Source: Streptomyces sp. HUAS ZL42 (lineage in GTDB: Bacteria; Actinomycetota; Actinomycetes; Streptomycetales; Streptomycetaceae). From it: a stretch of DNA of 64,000 nt. Made by a program: the position numbers and the translations under genes. Numbering within the stretch: the first letter of the stretch is position 1; each line of letters starts with the position of its first letter. Below the pieces are notes generated by a model. It worked only from the letters and a program-made list of their open reading frames with translations, was not told the DNA's origin and did not search any database. The stretch spans positions 5,987,001-6,051,000 of the forward strand of contig NZ_CP160403.1 in the NCBI RefSeq assembly GCF_040782645.1, in the 5' to 3' direction. Below are positions 1,686-11,023 of this stretch, piece by piece.

Positions 1686-3602
1686 TCACGCCTGCGTGCA
1701 GGCCCTGTCGCCCAGCAGCTCGGCGATACGGTCCGGCGACACCGGCCGTGAGTACAGCCACCCCTGGCCGGTGTCACAGCCGATGCGACGCAGCCGGGCG
1801 GCCTGGGCCGAGGTCTCCACGCACTCGGCGGTGACGGTCAGCCCGAGACGGTGGGCCAGCTGGATCATCGCCTCGACGACGACCTCGTCCGCCGGGTTCG
1901 GCGGGGTGCCCGCACCCTCGTACTGGAAGCCGCGGACGAAGGAACCGTCCAGTTTCAGGACCGAGACGGGCAGCCGGCTCAGATAGGCCAGGTTCGAGTA
2001 GCCGGTGCCGAAGTCGTCGATCGCGATGCCCACGCCCATGTCGCTGAGGGCCTGGAGAGCCTGCAACGGCCGGCCCGCCGAGCCCATCACCGCCGACTCG
2101 GTCAGTTCGAGCTGGAGGAGGTGGGGTGGCAGGTCCGTCTCCTCGAGGATCTCCGCCACGTCCGCCACCAGATCCGAGTCCCAGACCTGACGGACCGCCA
2201 CGTTCACGCTCACGAACAGCGGCGGCTCGTCGGGGTGGTCCAGCTGCCAGCGGCGGGCCTGGCGGCAGGAGGCCTCCAGCACCCAGCGGCCCAGCGGCAC
2301 GATCGAGCCGTCCTCCTCCGCCAGTCCGATGAACCGATTCGGCGTCAGCAGACCGAACTGCGGGTGGTTCCAGCGGACGAGCGCCTCGACCCCGCGGATC
2401 CGGCCGTCCGTCATACAGACCAGCGGCTGGTAGTCCAGCATGAACTCGCCGCGCTCGATGGCCGGCCGGAGCGTGGAGGACAGTGCCTGACGGGTCATCA
2501 AGTGGGCGTTGCGCTCGGGGTCGAAGAGCGTCCAGCGGGACTTGCCGTCCACCTTCGCCCAGTACAGCGTCGTATCGGCCGCCTGCATCAGGCCGGTGGC
2601 GGTGGTGCCCGCCGCGTGGCGCTCGACGACACCGATCGACGCGGAGACGGACAGCCGCCGCCCCGCCAGGTCGAAGGGGGCCTGGAGGGCCTGCAGTACG
2701 GATTCGGCGAGATCCGCGAGCTGCTCGGTGCCCGTGGAGTCCTCGATCAGCAGCGCGAACTCGTCGCCGCCGAGTCTGGCCACCAGCGGCGCGCTCGCTC
2801 TGCCGTAACCGGCGTCGTCCGCACAGCGGTTGAGCCGTTCGGCCACGGCCGCCAGCAGACGGTCGCCGACGCGATGGCCGAGGGTGTCGTTGACCGCCTT
2901 GAAGCCGTCGAGATCGAGGTAGCACAGGCCGATCCGGCCCGTGCCGCCCTGCTCGTACGACTCCGACTCCAGCGCGGCCGACAGGCGCTCGAAGAACAGC
3001 GTGCGGTTGGGCAGCCGGGTCGCCGGGTCGTGCATCTGCAAGTGGTGCAGTCGTGCCTGGAGTTCGCGGTGTGCGCTGATGTCGGCGACGGAGAGCAGCA
3101 CGCCGGATGCGGCGTCGGCCAGCGGTGTCGCGGCGACCTGGGCCCACAGCGAGTGTCCGTCGGGGTGCTTCAGACGGCGTGTGCAGCGCAGCTTCGCCCG
3201 GCGGCCGCGCAGGACCTCGCGGTAGGCGTGCCAGGTGCGTGCGTCCGAGGCCAGGTCGAGCAGATCGGCGGCCACCTGCCCGGCGAGCTCGGCGGGTTCG
3301 GCGCCGAGCAGACCGCCGAGCGTGTCGTTCGCGCAGACCACCAGGCCCTCACGGTCGACGACGGCCATGGCGAGCGGGGCGGCCGCGAAGACGGAGCGGT
3401 AGGTGGTGGGGACTTCGGCAGGGACTTCGGCAGGGACTTCCGTGGGCACTTCGGCGGGGGCTGCGATACAGGCATCGGTGTGGGCATCCGGGCGGGTGTC
3501 CGCACCGGTCTCCGTACCGGATGATGTGCTGATGTCGCTCTCTGTGACGGCTGACCGGTCGAGGTCCACCGCGGCCGTCGGCCCTTCGGACGTTGCGCTC
3601 AC
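1686..3602 (-). CDS. cdgA: PAS-GGDEF-EAL cyclic-di-GMP turnover protein (probably CdgA)
   Basis: A 638-residue protein with a Thr/Ser/Pro-rich N-terminal extension (1-66) containing four EVP(A/T) repeats, a PAS domain (about 67-185), a GGDEF domain (about 190-360) with intact GGDEF at 278-282, and an EAL domain (about 380-630) with intact EAL at 406-408. The EAL domain keeps its metal and catalytic residues: the Asn of SVNV, LELTES, the DDFGTG loop, the Lys of LKLDGSF, and AECVET. The RxxD inhibitory site normally five residues before GGDEF is absent. It probably both makes and degrades cyclic-di-GMP, the signal that works with BldD in Streptomyces development. No membrane segment. The name rests on domain order and its position relative to cebR/bglC recalled from S. 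coelicolor (SCO2817), not on a comparison. Confidence 0.9.
   Translation of the reverse strand: MSATSEGPTAAVDLDRSAVTESDISTSSGTETGADTRPDAHTDACIAAPAEVPTEVPAEVPAEVPTTYRSVFAAAPLAMAVVDREGLVVCANDTLGGLLGAEPAELAGQVAADLLDLASDARTWHAYREVLRGRRAKLRCTRRLKHPDGHSLWAQVAATPLADAASGVLLSVADISAHRELQARLHHLQMHDPATRLPNRTLFFERLSAALESESYEQGGTGRIGLCYLDLDGFKAVNDTLGHRVGDRLLAAVAERLNRCADDAGYGRASAPLVARLGGDEFALLIEDSTGTEQLADLAESVLQALQAPFDLAGRRLSVSASIGVVERHAAGTTATGLMQAADTTLYWAKVDGKSRWTLFDPERNAHLMTRQALSSTLRPAIERGEFMLDYQPLVCMTDGRIRGVEALVRWNHPQFGLLTPNRFIGLAEEDGSIVPLGRWVLEASCRQARRWQLDHPDEPPLFVSVNVAVRQVWDSDLVADVAEILEETDLPPHLLQLELTESAVMGSAGRPLQALQALSDMGVGIAIDDFGTGYSNLAYLSRLPVSVLKLDGSFVRGFQYEGAGTPPNPADEVVVEAMIQLAHRLGLTVTAECVETSAQAARLRRIGCDTGQGWLYSRPVSPDRIAELLGDRACTQA
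3409..3456 (+). repeat. Four 12-bp tandem repeats inside the cyclic-di-GMP gene
   Basis: Units 3409-3420 and 3421-3432 are identical (gggacttcggca); 3433-3444 and 3445-3456 are variants. They encode EVP(A/T) tetrapeptides on the minus strand in the linker before the PAS domain. Length is a multiple of three, so changes in copy number keep the frame. Confidence 0.85.
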
Positions 3603-5262: not shown

Positions 5263-5336
5263 TGCGCCGCCAGGGACTCGAACCCCGGACCCGCTGATTA
5301 AGAGTCAGCTGCTCTAACCAACTGAGCTAGCGGCGC
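5263..5336 (-). tRNA. tRNA-Lys (CTT)
   Basis: A 74-base cloverleaf on the minus strand: acceptor GCGCCGC pairs with GCGGCGC, the D-arm is GCTC...GAGC, the anticodon stem GCTGA/TCAGC holds the loop CTCTTAA with anticodon CTT, and the T-arm has the TTCGAGT loop. CCA is not encoded. The 3' end of the upstream 193-codon gene on the same strand overlaps its first ten bases. Confidence 0.97.
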
Positions 5337-5908
5337 CTGCTGACGTCGTAGACCTTAGCATCCTGATCGGCGGGAGGAAAAATCGATATGCGGATAGCCG
5401 CTCGGGCGGCCCTCACCGCAGCCCAGAGCAGGACCTCCGGACCCGGCAGCCAGGGGTGACGCGTGTCCGGGGCGACCAGCCAGCGGGCACCGGAGGGGGC
5501 GGAGGGGAGAGCCGTGGGGATGGGGGCCGGTACGGTCACCGCGTCCCCGTTGCCGTGGCACAGCAGGGGCGGAACGTCCGCCGTACGACCGTCCCGGCGG
5601 CCGTGGGACCCCCACTCCTCCCACTCCAGGAGCGAAGGAAGCCGCTGGGCCGTGCCGGGCGTCGCGAACAGCAGGATCCGCCCCCGGAACTCGGCGACCG
5701 GCCCGGATCCGGGCCCCTCGGTCCAGAGGCGGTCGAGCATCCGGCGCCCGAAGATGGCCGGCGCGTTGACGACGTCGAAGACGGTTCCGCAGGGCAGTAC
5801 GACGGGTGCCCCGGGCTGTTCCTCCCAGAGGGCGAGCGTGCTGCGCGGATACGTTCCTGTCGAGGCGAGCCAGGCGGCTCCGTCAGAGGTGACCCATGCG
5901 CTGCTCAT
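5327..5908 (-). CDS. Prim-pol-like (bifunctional primase/polymerase N-terminal) small protein
   Basis: Encodes 193 residues. Its internal sequence, with an aspartate-containing GTVFDVVNAPAIFGRRMLDRLW helix region, a GPVAEFRGRILLFATPGT segment and LPSLLEWEEW, resembles the short Streptomyces proteins assigned to the primase/polymerase N-terminal family. Whether the polymerase site is complete is not clear, so enzymatic activity should not be assumed; the DNA link is family-level inference. No signal peptide or membrane helix. The TAG stop lies in the 5' end of tRNA-Lys, so the gene and the tRNA overlap by ten bases and may share a transcript. Confidence 0.6.
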   Translation of the reverse strand: MSSAWVTSDGAAWLASTGTYPRSTLALWEEQPGAPVVLPCGTVFDVVNAPAIFGRRMLDRLWTEGPGSGPVAEFRGRILLFATPGTAQRLPSLLEWEEWGSHGRRDGRTADVPPLLCHGNGDAVTVPAPIPTALPSAPSGARWLVAPDTRHPWLPGPEVLLWAAVRAARAAIRISIFPPADQDAKVYDVSRRR

Positions 5909-6031: not shown

Positions 6032-6400
6032 TCACACGGGGTCGGCGGTTCCGCGGCCCTCGACGGCCCCCCGCATCAGATCCCGCCCGAACTCGACCAT
6101 CTTCTTCGCGTAGTCCTCGGTCCACTCGGCCTCCTCGCCGATGTCCGCCGGGGTCAGCCGGTCGAACCGGCGCGGGTCGGCGAGCTGGGCCGCGGCGATC
6201 GCCTGGAACTCCACCGCCCGGTCGGCGGCCGCACGGAAGGCCTGCGTCAGCTCCGTCGCACGGGCCAGCAGCGCCCGCGGATCGTCGATCGACTCCAGAT
6301 CGAAGAAGTGCTCAGGGTCGGCGGCCACCTCCGCGGGCTCGAACAGCAGGGGCGCGGGGCGTAGCCGCGGTTCGTTCCGACGCGGCGTGGGCTCCGCCAT
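6032..6400 (-). CDS. Conserved hypothetical protein (122 aa)
   Basis: The ATG at 6400 follows a strong GGAGGAG site; the frame can be read further upstream but only through the repeat region, without a ribosome site. The 122-residue product is soluble and mostly helical, with an acidic N-terminal half (AADPEHFFDLESIDDPRALLARATELTQAFRAAADRAVEFQAIAAAQLADP), a conserved-looking RFDRLTPADIGEEAEWTEDYAKKMVEFG helix pair and no membrane segment. I do not recognise a family. It lies 473 bases downstream of the helicase gene on the same strand, separated by the tandem repeats, so it probably has its own promoter. Confidence 0.7.
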   Translation of the reverse strand: MAEPTPRRNEPRLRPAPLLFEPAEVAADPEHFFDLESIDDPRALLARATELTQAFRAAADRAVEFQAIAAAQLADPRRFDRLTPADIGEEAEWTEDYAKKMVEFGRDLMRGAVEGRGTADPV

Positions 6401-6565
6401 GTCTTCTCCTCCTCGTACGGTTGCCGGTGGCGCCGCCTTCTGGTTGTGCCACCCTCCATTGTCTCGCGCCGCCGCAAGGGGGCCCGTTGGCCCCGCCTTC
6501 TCAAGGTCTCCAGCCCAAGGGATGTTCCCCCGGGCAGGGGGCCGGTCACGGTTTCCAGCGCACCC

Positions 6566-6950
6566 GATGCTCCCCGAGGAGCGTCGGCACCGTGTGATTG
6601 GCTTCCCGGCTGTCCGGGCTGTGTCCCATGGCCGTCTTCGGTGGTGTGCCGCCGTGTCGGCCTGCCGCTGCCGTGGCGCCCGGTGCCGGCCGGGCGGGTG
6701 CCGGGTGCCGGTCATGGTCTCCAGACGACCTGATGTTTCCCGAGGACCGTTGGCACCGTGTGATTGGCCTCCGGGCTGTCCGGGCTGTGTCCCATGGCCG
6801 TCTTCGGTGGTGTGCCGCCGTGTCGGCCTGCCGCTGCCGTGGCGCTCCGCGCCGGGCGGGTGCGGGGTTCCCCTCACGGTGTCCAGACGACCCGATGTTT
6901 CCCGAGGAGTGCCAGCACCGCGTGATTCGCCTCCCAGCCGTCCGGGAACT
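6566..6950. repeat. Tandem degenerate copies of the helicase gene's 3' tail
   Basis: Unit A (6566-6731, 166 bp) and unit B (6732-6893, 162 bp) are direct repeats with a long identical core (gtgattgg..., then ccatggccgtcttcggtggt and onward to about 6842). Both begin with a sequence matching the authentic end of the helicase gene at 6894-6950. Read on the minus strand, unit B gives EANHTVPTVLGKHQVVW against the real C-terminus EANHAVLALLGKHRVVW; unit A is more diverged, and a further partial copy is visible at about 6518-6565. The units carry no stop-free gene with a ribosome site. They fill most of the 473-base gap between the helicase gene and the 122-aa gene. Confidence 0.85.
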
Positions 6951-8226
6951 TCACGAGCGTCCCCAGCTGTACCGGTTCCGTCGACGGATAGTCGTCCAGG
7001 AGCTCGCCCACGCCCGCCCGGCACACCACGATGCACGCGTGACGGTGGCGGGAGGCCAGGACGCAGAGGCGGCCCGTTTCCAGGTGGAAGGCGGTGGCGT
7101 CCGGGCGGCCCGAGAGCGGGTGCAGGACCACCGTCACGTCGTACTCCCGGCCCTGCAGCCGGTTCGCCGTGTCCACGGTGACGTCCGTGACGCCCAGCTC
7201 CGCCAGGGCCGTCCGTACCGCCGCGGCCTGGTCGCGGTGGGCCGTGCCGACGGCGATCCGGTCGGCGGTGAGGGGGACGGGCCCCGACGACCGCTCGGAC
7301 ACGGCCGCTCCGCCCCGGTCCAGCAGCCGTCGTACGACCACGGCCACGGCCCGGACCGCCTCCGGGTCCGTGCGCGGCGTGTGCCGGGCCGGCAGCTCCA
7401 GCAGGCCCCAGCCCGAGTCCGCCGCCTCGTCGATCACCCGGTCCGGGCCCGAACCGTCCGAGGCGACGGCGAAGGACAGCCGGCGGTCGTCGTGGTCCGT
7501 GCCGCTGCGGAAGGGGGTGTAGGGGTAGAAGGCGTCCGACACCAGCGGCGCGGCCGACGCCGGGAGCCGCCAGGACACCGGGAGACGGTGCTGCGGCAGG
7601 TCAGGGTTGTGCGCGAGCAGAGTCGTCACGGCAGAGGCCGACGGGTCGTACGACAGGCCCGCCCACTGCTCACTGCCCACGATCGCGAACGGGTCCAGCT
7701 GACCCGGGTCGCCCACGAACAGCGCCCGCTCGAACAGCCCGGCAACGGCGAGGAGCGAGTCCGAGCGCATCTGGTACGCCTCGTCGACGATCGCGTGCCG
7801 CCACGGCTCGTCCACCTTCACATGCGCCCACTTGGCCGCCGTCGAGATCACCACCGGGAGACCGGTCAGCTCCGCTGCCTTCGCCGACTTGCGGACGTTC
7901 GGCAGGTCGTCGAGCGCCTTGTCGTACGGATCGGCGTCGCTGCTGTGCAGTCGGCCGACCGGCAGTTCGGGGTCCTTCTCGGCGAGCCGGACGACCAGGT
8001 CGTCCACCTGCGCGTTCGTCTGCGCCACCACCATCAGCGGGCGTCCCGCGTCGGCGAGTTCGAGCGCCGCGCGGACGACGAGCGTGGACTTGCCGGCGCC
8101 GGGCGGGGAGTCCACCACGACACCACGCGCCGAGCCCTGCAGCGTGTCGTGGAGGATTCGCTCGGTCGCGCGGGAGGCTGCCGAGCCGGGGTCGAACGCG
8201 GCCTCCTCGGTCTGGGGCGCGGTCAC
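6874..8226 (-). CDS. Superfamily 1 (UPF1/Dna2-like) DNA/RNA helicase
   Basis: Predicted 450-residue ATP-dependent helicase. Motifs are in order: Walker A SPPGAGKST at 40-48, the Ia-like AQTNAQVDDLV near 68-78, Walker B DEAYQ at 148-152, motif III GDPGQLDPF at 172-180, a WRLP segment (motif IV region), motif V-like DTANRLQGREYDVTVV, and motif VI-like SRHRHACIVV. This order and the DEA(Y)Q and GDPGQ forms match the SF1B UPF1/Dna2 group. The GTG at 8226 follows GGAGGACCTCCT and overlaps the previous stop as GTGA, so it is translationally coupled to the upstream 531-aa gene. The 3' tail is repeated downstream. Third gene of the nuclease/unknown/helicase operon; DNA repair or phage defence are inferences. 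Confidence 0.85.
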   Translation of the reverse strand: MTAPQTEEAAFDPGSAASRATERILHDTLQGSARGVVVDSPPGAGKSTLVVRAALELADAGRPLMVVAQTNAQVDDLVVRLAEKDPELPVGRLHSSDADPYDKALDDLPNVRKSAKAAELTGLPVVISTAAKWAHVKVDEPWRHAIVDEAYQMRSDSLLAVAGLFERALFVGDPGQLDPFAIVGSEQWAGLSYDPSASAVTTLLAHNPDLPQHRLPVSWRLPASAAPLVSDAFYPYTPFRSGTDHDDRRLSFAVASDGSGPDRVIDEAADSGWGLLELPARHTPRTDPEAVRAVAVVVRRLLDRGGAAVSERSSGPVPLTADRIAVGTAHRDQAAAVRTALAELGVTDVTVDTANRLQGREYDVTVVLHPLSGRPDATAFHLETGRLCVLASRHRHACIVVCRAGVGELLDDYPSTEPVQLGTLVKFPDGWEANHAVLALLGKHRVVWTP

Positions 8227-9818
8227 AGGAGGTCCTCCTCGGTCACGGGATCGGCGGCCTCCGGCACGGCGGCCGTCTCGCCCGGCGGGCCGCCGTGCGT
8301 CCACGGTGTCTCCTCCGGGTCGGGCAGCTTCGCGCCGCCGCGCTGCTCGTGCTCGAAGAGCGTGAAGCAGACCTGGTCGCCCTTCTCCGGCACGGACCCG
8401 GTCTCGGGCTCCTTGCCGCGGCCCATCTTGTCGACGATCCGCAGGACGAGCACACCGTCGCCCTCCGTCCCCACGTACTCGGCCGCCTGCGGCTTCCCGG
8501 CGAGGGACCGGTACACCTTCGCCCGCTCCCCGAGGTGCGGCCGGTCGTCCGTGCGTACGGTGACCAGCGGGCGCGGGCTGGGCCGCTTGCCCTCGCTGTA
8601 CGCCATGACCACGTCCGTGACCTCACCCGCGAAGGCCTCCCCGGCCAGCCTGCGCCCGGCCATCACCAGCGGGTCGTCGAGTGCCTCCTGGGCCTCCAGG
8701 CGGGCCTGCTCCCGCTCGCGGCCGGCCAGCTTGTTCGCGGCGGTGACCGCGTCGTCGCGACGCGGCTGCGGGGGCTCGCCGGCCACGACACGGTCGCGGT
8801 GGCCGGTGAACGACCAGCGGTCGCGGGTCCACCGCTGCTCGACGTGCGCTCCCTCGGGCAGGGTGCGGAGCAGGTCCAGTCCGTCCCACACCTTGTGCCA
8901 GGTGGGCAGCATGACCCGTCCGACCAGGTCGCGGATCTCCCGCTCGGCGGTGGTGAGGTCACCGAGCCTGTCGTCCGCCTCCAGGCCGTCCTCGGCGGCG
9001 GCGAGGGCGGTGCGGGCGCGGTCGTAGCGCTCGATGGCCGGGGCGAGCAGTTTGTTGTCGAAGGCAGGGTCGGTGGCCGGGCCGGCCGGCGGGCACAGCA
9101 GCTGGCCGTCCGCGCTCCGAGCGAGCTCCGCCCGGAGCGCGGCCTCGGCGCCCGTAGCGCCCTCCGGCGGTTCGATCCACGCCAGCAGGGCGCCCAGGTG
9201 CTGGTCCTCCAGAGTGGACTGGCCCGTCGCCCAGTGCCGGGCCAGGACGTCCGTGAGGGCCAGCAGGAGCGAGGAGCCGGGCACCCGGGCCCGCTCCCCG
9301 AAGTGGGTCAGCCACCGGCCGAGCAGCGGCACGCGCGGGGGCGCGGGATGCGGGGTCTCCGGGTCCTGCTCCGCCGTACGCCTGAAACGCATGGAACGGC
9401 CCAGCAGCCGTACGAAGTCGATGCCCGCGCGGCTCGGCACGATCAGCTGCGGCGCGTCCGCGCACAGCTCCACCTCGACCTTGACCCGCTTGCCGGTCTC
9501 CGGGTCGGTCTCGCCCCGCTCGGCGGCCTCCACGACGTCGGCGTAGGAGTCGACATACGGAAGAACGATGTCGGCCAGCTCGGCCAGGAAGGCGAATCTG
9601 AGGTCGCGGTCGCGCGGCTGCGGGACGACGAGGAGGCGCGGGGCCTCGCGGTCGGTCCCGGCCAGCGCGCCGAGCGGGGCGCCGGCCTCACCCGCGGTGG
9701 TGAGCGGCACGAACACCAGCGGACGCTCCGACAGATGCCGGTGCCGGACGGTGGCGGCGGGCTGCGCGCGGCCGGTGGCGACGGCCTCCAGACGGGCGAG
9801 GGTGGAGATCAGCGACAT
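8223..9818 (-). CDS. Uncharacterised protein between nuclease and helicase (531 aa)
   Basis: A 531-residue soluble protein with no family I recognise. The ATG at 9818 lies inside the end of the nuclease gene (stop at 9809), and its own stop overlaps the helicase start, so the three are tightly coupled. The N-terminal 130 residues alternate strands and helices (LVFVPLTTAGEAG, LLVVPQPRDRDLRFAFLAELADIV); the middle is helical and Ala/Arg-rich; residues from about 400 onward look like a small beta-barrel (RPLVTVRTDDRPHLGERAKVYRS, GVLVLRIVDKMGRGK, DQVCFTLFEHEQ). The barrel may be a nucleic-acid-binding adaptor for the helicase, as SF1B helicases often carry such an N-terminal barrel, but this is inference. 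Confidence 0.75.
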   Translation of the reverse strand: MSLISTLARLEAVATGRAQPAATVRHRHLSERPLVFVPLTTAGEAGAPLGALAGTDREAPRLLVVPQPRDRDLRFAFLAELADIVLPYVDSYADVVEAAERGETDPETGKRVKVEVELCADAPQLIVPSRAGIDFVRLLGRSMRFRRTAEQDPETPHPAPPRVPLLGRWLTHFGERARVPGSSLLLALTDVLARHWATGQSTLEDQHLGALLAWIEPPEGATGAEAALRAELARSADGQLLCPPAGPATDPAFDNKLLAPAIERYDRARTALAAAEDGLEADDRLGDLTTAEREIRDLVGRVMLPTWHKVWDGLDLLRTLPEGAHVEQRWTRDRWSFTGHRDRVVAGEPPQPRRDDAVTAANKLAGREREQARLEAQEALDDPLVMAGRRLAGEAFAGEVTDVVMAYSEGKRPSPRPLVTVRTDDRPHLGERAKVYRSLAGKPQAAEYVGTEGDGVLVLRIVDKMGRGKEPETGSVPEKGDQVCFTLFEHEQRGGAKLPDPEETPWTHGGPPGETAAVPEAADPVTEEDLL

Positions 9819-11023
9819 GCCACCGCTCCCAGCGCCTCGGCGCGCAGCTCGGCCGCCCTCCTGAGTGCCACCACCGCCGGATCCTCCGGATCCCCGGCCT
9901 CTCCGCGGGCTGCCGACAGGACGTCGTCGACCGTCGTCAGACCGCCCAGTTCGGCGCGGACCGAGCGGCCGAGCGAGGTCACCGCCCCGGCGGCGCGGGA
10001 GCGGTCGCGGCAGTGGAAGGCCAGCTCGCAGGCGGCCAGGCACTCGGGCGCGTAGGTCGCCGGAACCGACTCCACGGCAGCCGTCAGCTCGGCGGCGGGA
10101 AGATCGGGGGAGAAGCACGTGCCCTCGGGGAGCGTGTCCGCGATGTCCTGGATGCGGGTGAGACGGGCCAACTGGCGGCTGGTCACCGCGCGCTGTTTGC
10201 GGACGTCGACGGCCGAGGCGGTGGGGAGGTTGGAGAAGTCCTTGGGGCAGACGAGCAGGACGCGGTGGCGTACTCGGGGAGCGGGAATCAGGCGCGCAGC
10301 CACCTGTTCGAGGGCCAGTACGTAGACCGCGGCCTGCCGGGCGGCCGCGCCGACCTTCGTCGGGTCCGCCGAACCGTCCAGCATCGGGAAGGACTTGATC
10401 TCCACCACCGTCCAGCTGCCGTCCGGGTGGACGACGACGGCGTCCGGCTCGAGGAAGGCCGGGGAACCGGCGACGTCGAGCGCGAGCATGGGGTGGTCGA
10501 GCAGGGTCCAGCTGCCGCGGCCGTCCTCCGTGGCCTCGCGCAGGGCGAGCGCCGTGCGGGCTGTGCGGCCCTCGGGGCCGATCGCCGCGAGGTCGGGCAC
10601 GCGCGCGTCGGCGGGCGGCTCCGCGCCCCGGTCCAGCTTCTCGTGCACGAGCCTCAGCAGCTCCGCGCCGCCGTCCGCCTTCACCCGCGCCTCGAACGCG
10701 TTGCCGCGGGTGAAGGCGAACTGCGACTGCCCGAAGACCGACGGCGAGCCCAACGCGCCTGCCACCGCCGCCTTGTTCACCCCGGCGCCGTCGAGGATGG
10801 CGCGCCGCTTGCAGCCCGGGTTCGCGGCGAGCGCCGCGAGGGCGCGGGCGTCCAGTGCCTTGGCGGGTACGTCGGGGCCGCGCAGCTCAGCGAGCCGCTG
10901 CCGGAGCGCCCTCTCCCGCGTCCGAGGGAGAGGTACTCGGTTCGGCTCCTGGCCCGAACCGCGCTTCGGGTCGCTGCCGTGGAATTCGCTCACCCGCGGA
11001 AGTCTGGCATCCGCCACTGACAA
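9809..11023 (-). CDS. Cas4/RecB-like PD-(D/E)XK nuclease with predicted 4Fe-4S cluster
   Basis: With the earliest start (TTG 11023) the protein has 404 residues; GTG at 11017 or about 10995 are alternatives. The nuclease core is Asp194 in FLEPDAVVV, Glu208 and Lys210 in VVEIKSF, and Gln230-x3-Tyr234, the QxxxY motif of the RecB/AddB/Cas4 branch. Cys71, Cys328, Cys332 and Cys338 are placed like the one-plus-three cysteines that bind a 4Fe-4S cluster in Cas4 and AddB, here spaced C-x3-C-x5-C. It should cut DNA, probably exonucleolytically. It is the first gene of the operon with the 531-aa protein and the Dna2-like helicase; Dna2 itself joins these nuclease and helicase types in one chain. The annotated 5' end overlaps the PAP2 gene by up to 137 bases. 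Confidence 0.8.
   Translation of the reverse strand: MSVADARLPRVSEFHGSDPKRGSGQEPNRVPLPRTRERALRQRLAELRGPDVPAKALDARALAALAANPGCKRRAILDGAGVNKAAVAGALGSPSVFGQSQFAFTRGNAFEARVKADGGAELLRLVHEKLDRGAEPPADARVPDLAAIGPEGRTARTALALREATEDGRGSWTLLDHPMLALDVAGSPAFLEPDAVVVHPDGSWTVVEIKSFPMLDGSADPTKVGAAARQAAVYVLALEQVAARLIPAPRVRHRVLLVCPKDFSNLPTASAVDVRKQRAVTSRQLARLTRIQDIADTLPEGTCFSPDLPAAELTAAVESVPATYAPECLAACELAFHCRDRSRAAGAVTSLGRSVRAELGGLTTVDDVLSAARGEAGDPEDPAVVALRRAAELRAEALGAVACR

Follow-up and report, generated by a model that had tools for sequence, protein, structure and literature searches.

In eukaryotes, Dna2 carries a nuclease, a stalk with a beta-barrel and the helicase domains 1A and 2A, in that order, on a single chain (PMC4716839). 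A single-chain bacterial enzyme of this kind is already known. Bad of Geobacillus stearothermophilus, as described in PMC7430649, comprises an iron-sulphur nuclease, a structurally unexplained central domain and a superfamily 1B (SF1B) helicase in one chain of 1245 amino acids, and the purified protein acts as a 5'-3' helicase and as a nuclease that cuts single strands. The same source describes Bad as rare and sporadic, and in geobacilli its gene adjoins a type III-like methyltransferase gene (PMC7430649). The subject here is an operon of three genes in a 64,000-nucleotide stretch of Streptomyces sp. HUAS ZL42 (NZ_CP160403.1, positions 5,987,001 to 6,051,000; hereafter the window), encoding a nuclease (NUC), a middle protein (MID) and a helicase (HEL). 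The operon appears to distribute a Dna2-like enzyme over three proteins and to divide the motor itself between two of them; unlike Bad, it occurs in nearly all Streptomyces sampled. An earlier note on this DNA had read it as a split Dna2-like system. The nuclease and motor types that it named are right, and the gene order is the domain order of Dna2.

The three genes and their products

All three genes lie on the reverse strand. NUC (9809..11023) encodes 404 amino acids from a TTG, a start that is uncertain, as the same gene is given 394 amino acids in the protein database. MID (8223..9818) encodes 531 amino acids from an ATG, and HEL (6874..8226) encodes 450 from a GTG. As the earlier note had observed, the middle gene overlaps both neighbours, NUC by 10 nucleotides and HEL by 4. 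An approximate test finds a MID start codon overlapping the stop codon of NUC in 37 of the 80 named loci, 17 of 20 distant ones, 15 of 15 accessory ones and 27 of 30 core ones. The operon is not a chance arrangement, since MID and NUC have 3671 and 3202 relatives, respectively, at E <= 0.001 (8000 scored candidates each). Among the matches listed, the named relatives are from Streptomyces and are mostly annotated as 'hypothetical protein'.

By its motifs and predicted fold, NUC is an iron-sulphur nuclease of the RecB/Cas4/AddB/Dna2 type. The core residues already recognised in the earlier note, D194, E208-x-K210 and Q230-x3-Y234 (10322..10444, reverse strand), are kept in 112, 112, 115, 114 and 117 of 117 sequences, respectively, and E111 in 112. 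The four cysteines that it had assigned to a putative 4Fe-4S cluster, C71 (10811..10813) and C328, C332 and C338 (10010..10042), are each present in 117 of 117, so that neither they nor the QxxxY motif have been lost in relatives. This set consists of the window and loci L031 upward (L001-L030 lie outside it), proteins of <=300 or >=520 amino acids having been removed beforehand. The predicted fold matches Cas4, EXO5, AddB and Dna2, but also exonucleases that lack a cluster. No credible match to NUC was obtained in Pfam, NCBIfam (0 families), PADLOC or PHROGs, and sequence searches of the PDB with NUC and with its alignment gave no real match; two low E-values in the alignment search belong to designed proteins aligned over 32 residues. 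The predicted iron-sulphur nuclease fold is also that of Cas4; no CRISPR-like repeat array is present in window positions 1-30000, in agreement with the earlier note, which had also reported the absence of cas genes, for which no search was made.

HEL was described in the earlier note as a UPF1/Dna2-like superfamily 1 helicase, and the profile matches and motifs agree with this. It matches Pfam AAA_11 (46 bits) and AAA_12 (32.9 bits), SMUBP-2 (E 7.4e-9) and Dna2 (E 2.8e-6), residues 38-191 of HEL aligning with 647-806 of Dna2. The Walker A motif PPGAGKS (residues 41-47; 8086..8106, reverse strand) keeps G43, G45 and K46 in 128 of 128 sequences, as are D148, E149 and R393, while Q152 of the DEAxQ motif is found in 127. 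HEL comprises the RecA domains 1A and 2A of an SF1B motor without the N-terminal stalk and barrel, and just 37 residues precede the start of the Dna2 alignment. PADLOC profiles give weak matches to MkoC, MkoA, DpdJ and four others, and the helicase of the PLuB system (NF040671) is matched in its helicase part only, at 60.7 bits against a curated cut-off of 999.

Other helicase-nucleases differ from the triple in motor or in architecture. The motors of AddAB and AdnAB are of the UvrD type (superfamily 1A) and fused to nucleases. These enzymes likewise combine a RecB-type nuclease, in AddB with an iron-sulphur cluster, and superfamily 1 motors acting on DNA ends, whereas the motor here is of the UPF1-type SF1B and the subunits are separate; HEL scores 10.8 bits against UvrD-helicase, below the cut-off of 23. 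No described system among the PADLOC profiles is matched by all three genes, NUC and MID having no match at all, and in none of the other libraries searched do the three together match a known system.

Fusions of the TM0106 family (TIGR03491) unite RecB, RNase H and UPF1-type helicase parts in a domain order similar to NUC-MID-HEL. Descent of the triple by the splitting of such a fusion, rather than from the Bad/Dna2 kind, would be compatible with the mechanism proposed below. The domain order speaks for it, as does the likeness of HEL to the helicase part of the fusions (hhalign E 8e-23; hmmsearch E down to 2e-24). The triple is not fused, however, and none of its proteins matches TIGR03491 (NUC has no family; MID and HEL have no row at E up to 1). 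For NUC and MID, hhalign gives E 0.0048 and 0.25 with a first set of fusions, which contained wrong-frame open reading frames and is of low value, and 0.088 and 0.74 with a cleaned set of 3 sequences; hmmsearch gives E 2.3 for NUC and nothing for MID. As no sequence link of NUC or MID to TM0106 was found, this family is unsupported as their parent, and such a descent is quite unlikely. An apparent near-exclusion of the two architectures (a fusion scores above the cut-off in 1 of the 11 genomes that have the module and in 21 of the 87 others) is too small to use. In one genome outside the class (L052:4059-7044), HEL shares 17 bp with a gene whose product has an RNase_H_2 domain and matches Cas4 weakly (E 4e-4), and so recalls TM0106 proteins minus the helicase.

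The middle protein and an apparent division of the motor

The earlier note had found nothing that MID resembles, taken it for a new adaptor and proposed a fold comparison. At the sequence level the first claim stands: Pfam, NCBIfam, PADLOC and PHROGs contain no credible match (best rows E 0.038 and 0.29, under the cut-offs), searching PDB sequences with the alignment of MID produced no real match, and no relative occurs among 50,697 phage records at E 1e-5. At the fold level it does not. The AlphaFold2 model of MID, built from a 126-sequence alignment (predicted local distance difference test 90.0, predicted template-modelling score 0.88), contains a helical region and a beta-barrel that match domain 1B of IGHMBP2 and senataxin. 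Residues 385-488 (8355..8666, reverse strand) make up the barrel, and residues about 31-330 (8829..9728) form a predicted domain that resembles the 3'-5' exonuclease region of family-B DNA polymerases, an RNase H fold. The top Foldseek rows for MID, barrels of F1-ATPase and ferredoxin reductase, are regarded as common-barrel matches, and a viral fold library had nothing at E <= 0.001. After the barrel follows the motif TPWTHGG (residues 504-510; 8289..8309), a candidate docking motif that is invariant in 126 of 126 sequences; in a wider set W506, T507 and H508 are found in 139 of 141, the other two being gapped there.

MID thus appears, from its model, to contain the barrel of the UPF1/Dna2 motor, which is the part that HEL lacks, and because of this the boundary between the two proteins seems to fall within the motor. 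MID would be less a new adaptor than half of the motor, although the adaptor reading keeps some merit, as MID also holds a domain absent from Dna2. Eukaryotic Dna2 shares with the triple the nuclease type, the stalk and barrel and the 1A/2A motor in the same order (PMC4716839), but is a single chain, has an OB domain and lacks the exonuclease/RNase-H-like domain; compared with it, the motor here seems to be split between barrel and 1A. Of the features that define Dna2 and Bad, the four-cysteine RecB-type nuclease is seen in the NUC sequences, and the SF1B motor with stalk and barrel is found only across two proteins, by predicted structure. The nuclease-helicase fusion is absent, no NUC-MID-HEL fusion occurring in any of 118 loci, and the triple may therefore work like Dna2 without being filed as Dna2.

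The folds of MID raise the question of whether the substrate could be RNA. IGHMBP2 and senataxin, the closest matches of its barrel, are helicases acting on RNA and on hybrids, and a UPF1-type motor combined with an RNase-H-like fold might remove R-loops. The usual catalytic acids of the exonuclease/RNase H fold are not recognised in MID, however, though E44, E204, D205 and E231 are conserved; NUC matches DNA nucleases, and the presumed partners described below, SbcCD and Wadjet, act on DNA. A role on RNA or RNA-DNA hybrids is accordingly very improbable.

Co-occurrence and plasmid-borne pairs

In a class sample of 394 genomes, MID was found in 71, HEL in 70 and NUC in 71 (HEL at E <= 1e-60, MID and NUC at 1e-3; genome lists compared by eye). 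Once two weak matches are dropped (MID in G217, E 2.7e-6; NUC in G176, E 3e-8), the three genes occupy the same 70 genomes, 39 of which belong to the genus of the window. A larger sample of that genus has a MID copy in 233 of 246 genomes, and two genomes outside the class contain very divergent triples. NUC and MID are neighbours on one strand in 80 of 80 named loci, where adjacency was counted at E <= 1e-20. HEL lies within 400 bp of them in 64 and at 0.4-2.6 kb in 4; in the other 12, some of which lie on short contigs, it was not found in the flank, and in two genomes checked the separated HEL is about 36 and 49 kb away. The shared set of genomes and the constant adjacency of NUC and MID favour a single three-subunit system.

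Plasmids of Rhodococcus, Mycolicibacterium, Euzebya and Xylanimonas encode a 'hypothetical protein' of 388-448 amino acids directly 5' of a HEL relative. When the MID profile was run against 92 sequences (46 real, 46 reversed), its only matches were six genes directly upstream of HEL, at E 8.7e-10 in Euzebya and 0.005-0.24 in the other five, and hhalign aligns MID with the first four of these upstream genes jointly at E 7.2e-11. A seventh plasmid locus, in Arthrobacter (L215), gave no match to the MID profile. At each of these loci three to five neighbouring genes were compared with the NUC profile, and none matched. Such pairs favour MID and HEL as one motor, and from the sequences we infer a two-subunit UPF1-like helicase that either gained the nuclease or lost it. 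Five plasmid loci (L211, L212, L214, L216, L217) form a conserved cluster of AAA ATPase, VWA-like, small, MID-like and HEL-like proteins, with no nuclease among the genes tested.

A core copy and accessory copies

The neighbourhood survey proposed in the earlier note separates two kinds of locus. Ten further members of the genus (L137-L146), together with L053 and L054, have the operon among many shared neighbours, which in L142 and L146 are kept on one side only; in a tree of the joined proteins, these 12 core copies form one clade with support 1.0. The Streptomyces core copy is thus a fixed, largely syntenic locus of the genus. Ten core regions of 20 kb contain no match to SbcCD, to Wadjet I or to the fourth gene described below; within the window, the PADLOC search covered the operon genes only. 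Among the neighbours in the window, HEL is followed on the same strand by two open reading frames (5327-5908 and about 6032-6532), one of which encodes a protein that begins with a primase-polymerase domain (PF09250, 25.8 bits against a cut-off of 22.8). The gene for the PF09250 protein is matched in 8 of the 12 core loci and a small family-less reading frame 3' of HEL in 10. A PAS-GGDEF-EAL protein is encoded near the operon (1686-3602, reverse strand), and a relative of it also adjoins NUC-MID in Micromonospora-type loci without HEL found in the flank.

Second copies have different surroundings. Twenty were assembled from the class sample (5), two plasmids and 13 fetched genomes. Of 22 genus genomes with at least two MID matches, these 13 were fetched and 3 were already in the set, while G711, G766, G785, G834, G872 and G889 were left out of it; two single copies chosen for SbcCD, L042 and L049, are outside the 20. 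All 20 contain the full triple with a fourth gene directly 5'. The fourth gene (L147:10721-11566) encodes 281 amino acids with no family match and a sub-threshold UVR motif only. It is present in 61 of the 80 named loci; of 12 whole genomes searched, however, only G348 has it, next to its second copy, and none was found in the window's own genome.

Divergently upstream of the triple lies either sbcD (12 of 20, with an sbcC match in 11 of these; L197 has no more than a partial sbcD, and in L148 both genes are fragments) or a PD-(D/E)XK gene labelled PprPDDEXK by PADLOC (8 of 20). In 4 of the 80 named loci, from two Amycolatopsis, one Kibdelosporangium and one Micromonospora, sbcD-sbcC instead follows HEL. 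The loci with SbcCD do not form one clade in the tree, which was rooted on L049 by choice. A simple estimate puts chance adjacency, taken as 9 kb to each side in a genome of 9 Mb, at about 0.2 percent per target locus.

On the 3' side, at least 13 of the 20 second copies are followed by a same-strand defence-type gene. Wadjet genes are found in 7: four loci have Wadjet I (L147, L148, L198 and L046, in the last after a DEAD/HA helicase) and three have genes of Wadjet II (L195, L197, L199). For L197, L198 and L199, the jet genes were recognised from their similarity to those of L042 and L147. Other loci have a DEAD/HA helicase (L047, L048), HmaA (L041), an HKD+Snf2 protein (L204, L206; in L204 also a type III methyltransferase) or a GmrSD-type gene (L207). 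L043 and L202 gave no same-strand PADLOC match, L202 having a PD-Lambda-1-like gene on the opposite strand. The downstream genes of L196, L200, L201, L203 and L205 were unscanned, and other loci were scanned in part. In L041 and L043 the upstream nucleases are 99% alike and the triples are sisters in the tree; the gene after HEL is HmaA-like in L041 and encodes a ResIII-domain protein without a PADLOC match in L043. In L147, L196 and L046 no more than about 7-15 kb separate the copy from the end of its linear plasmid or single-contig chromosome.

These surroundings sharpen the choice between defence and repair left by the earlier note, and do not settle it, as the core copy is syntenic and the second copies lie near SbcCD or PD-(D/E)XK and defence genes. 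The triple might be a defence system in every copy, degrading phage or plasmid DNA alone, with the core copy a domesticated defence set. An upstream sbcD or PD-(D/E)XK gene in all 20 second copies, the defence-type genes downstream, the two Streptomyces plasmids that carry the triple and the methyltransferase gene beside Bad (PMC7430649) are consistent with this. The core copies, however, are largely syntenic and form one clade, ten of their regions are without SbcCD, fourth-gene and Wadjet I matches, and at least one copy in 233 of 246 genomes is unusual for a defence gene, so that defence throughout is unlikely.

Conversely, the triple could be a genome-maintenance enzyme only, the defence genes beside second copies being passengers of variable chromosome arms. 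The fixed core locus and the linkage to SbcCD agree with this, and the chromosome ends of Streptomyces are in any case described as enriched in Wadjet and Lamassu (PMC10482375). Random passengers would be less orderly, though, than the Wadjet genes that directly follow HEL on the same strand after a gap of about 75-235 bp, and the place after HEL is taken by Wadjet I in L198 but, in the sister locus L197, by genes of Wadjet II. Maintenance alone therefore seems about as improbable as defence throughout.

A proposed mechanism

The operon, its motifs and folds, the barrel missing from HEL, the co-occurrence and the linkage to SbcCD and defence genes are supported by sequence or predicted structure. 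The reading we favour, and hold to be probable, is that the operon encodes a three-subunit DNA2-like helicase-nuclease whose core copy serves chromosome ends and whose accessory copies serve defence. MID and HEL would form one UPF1/Dna2-type 5'-to-3' motor, HEL giving the two RecA-like domains and MID the helical stalk and the 1B barrel, with the TPWTHGG tail docking MID to HEL; the exonuclease/RNase-H-like fold of MID is probably structural. NUC would sit on this motor and cut the single strand fed to it. The folds of NUC and MID, together with the 37 residues of HEL before the Dna2 alignment, favour such a split motor, and the activities described for purified Bad (PMC7430649) favour the DNA2-like reading.

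The machine may act on DNA ends, often with SbcCD (Mre11-Rad50), which would open or trim the end before NUC-MID-HEL unwinds and degrades it. The core copy could process broken chromosome ends, and accessory copies could clear foreign DNA cut by a neighbouring system such as Wadjet. Wadjet (JetABCD) and SbcCD, frequent neighbours of second copies, are different proteins, presumed partners and not relatives. According to PMC10586767, small circular plasmids are cut by Wadjet, which leaves linear DNA alone, and complexes of Rad50 act as sensors of DNA ends; a helicase-nuclease attacking the ends left by Wadjet would finish the destruction of the DNA. This end-processing and defence reading is favoured by sbcD at 12 of 20 second copies, sbcD-sbcC at 4 of 80 named loci and Wadjet at 7 of 20.

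A bolder proposal, held only tentatively and rather doubtful as a whole, is that actinobacteria have a counterpart of the eukaryotic Mre11-Rad50 and Dna2 end-processing pair, in which the Dna2-like engine consists of three subunits with a two-protein motor, and that this engine was reused as a plug-in immunity chassis. The fixed upstream part would consist of SbcCD or the PD-(D/E)XK nuclease, the small fourth protein and NUC-MID-HEL, and the exchangeable downstream effector would be, for instance, Wadjet I, Wadjet II or an SNF2-type system, the chassis destroying the DNA that the effector had opened.

Significance

Within the literature searched (titles and abstracts among the matches listed, with most subscription papers outside), the triple is undescribed and Bad is the closest system. 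This suggests that the distribution over three genes, the apparent cut within the motor and the structural reading of the middle part are new, as are the near-universal Streptomyces core locus and a modular chassis that combines SbcCD with interchangeable defence genes. For the genus, the analysis offers a testable function for three 'hypothetical' genes of nearly every Streptomyces genome sampled. It suggests a place where the UPF1/Dna2 motor can be divided into two proteins and provides a structural lead for the type of central domain left unexplained in Bad. It also ties a Dna2-like machine to the bacterial Mre11-Rad50 and to Wadjet, and could give Wadjet a DNA-degrading step that follows the cut.

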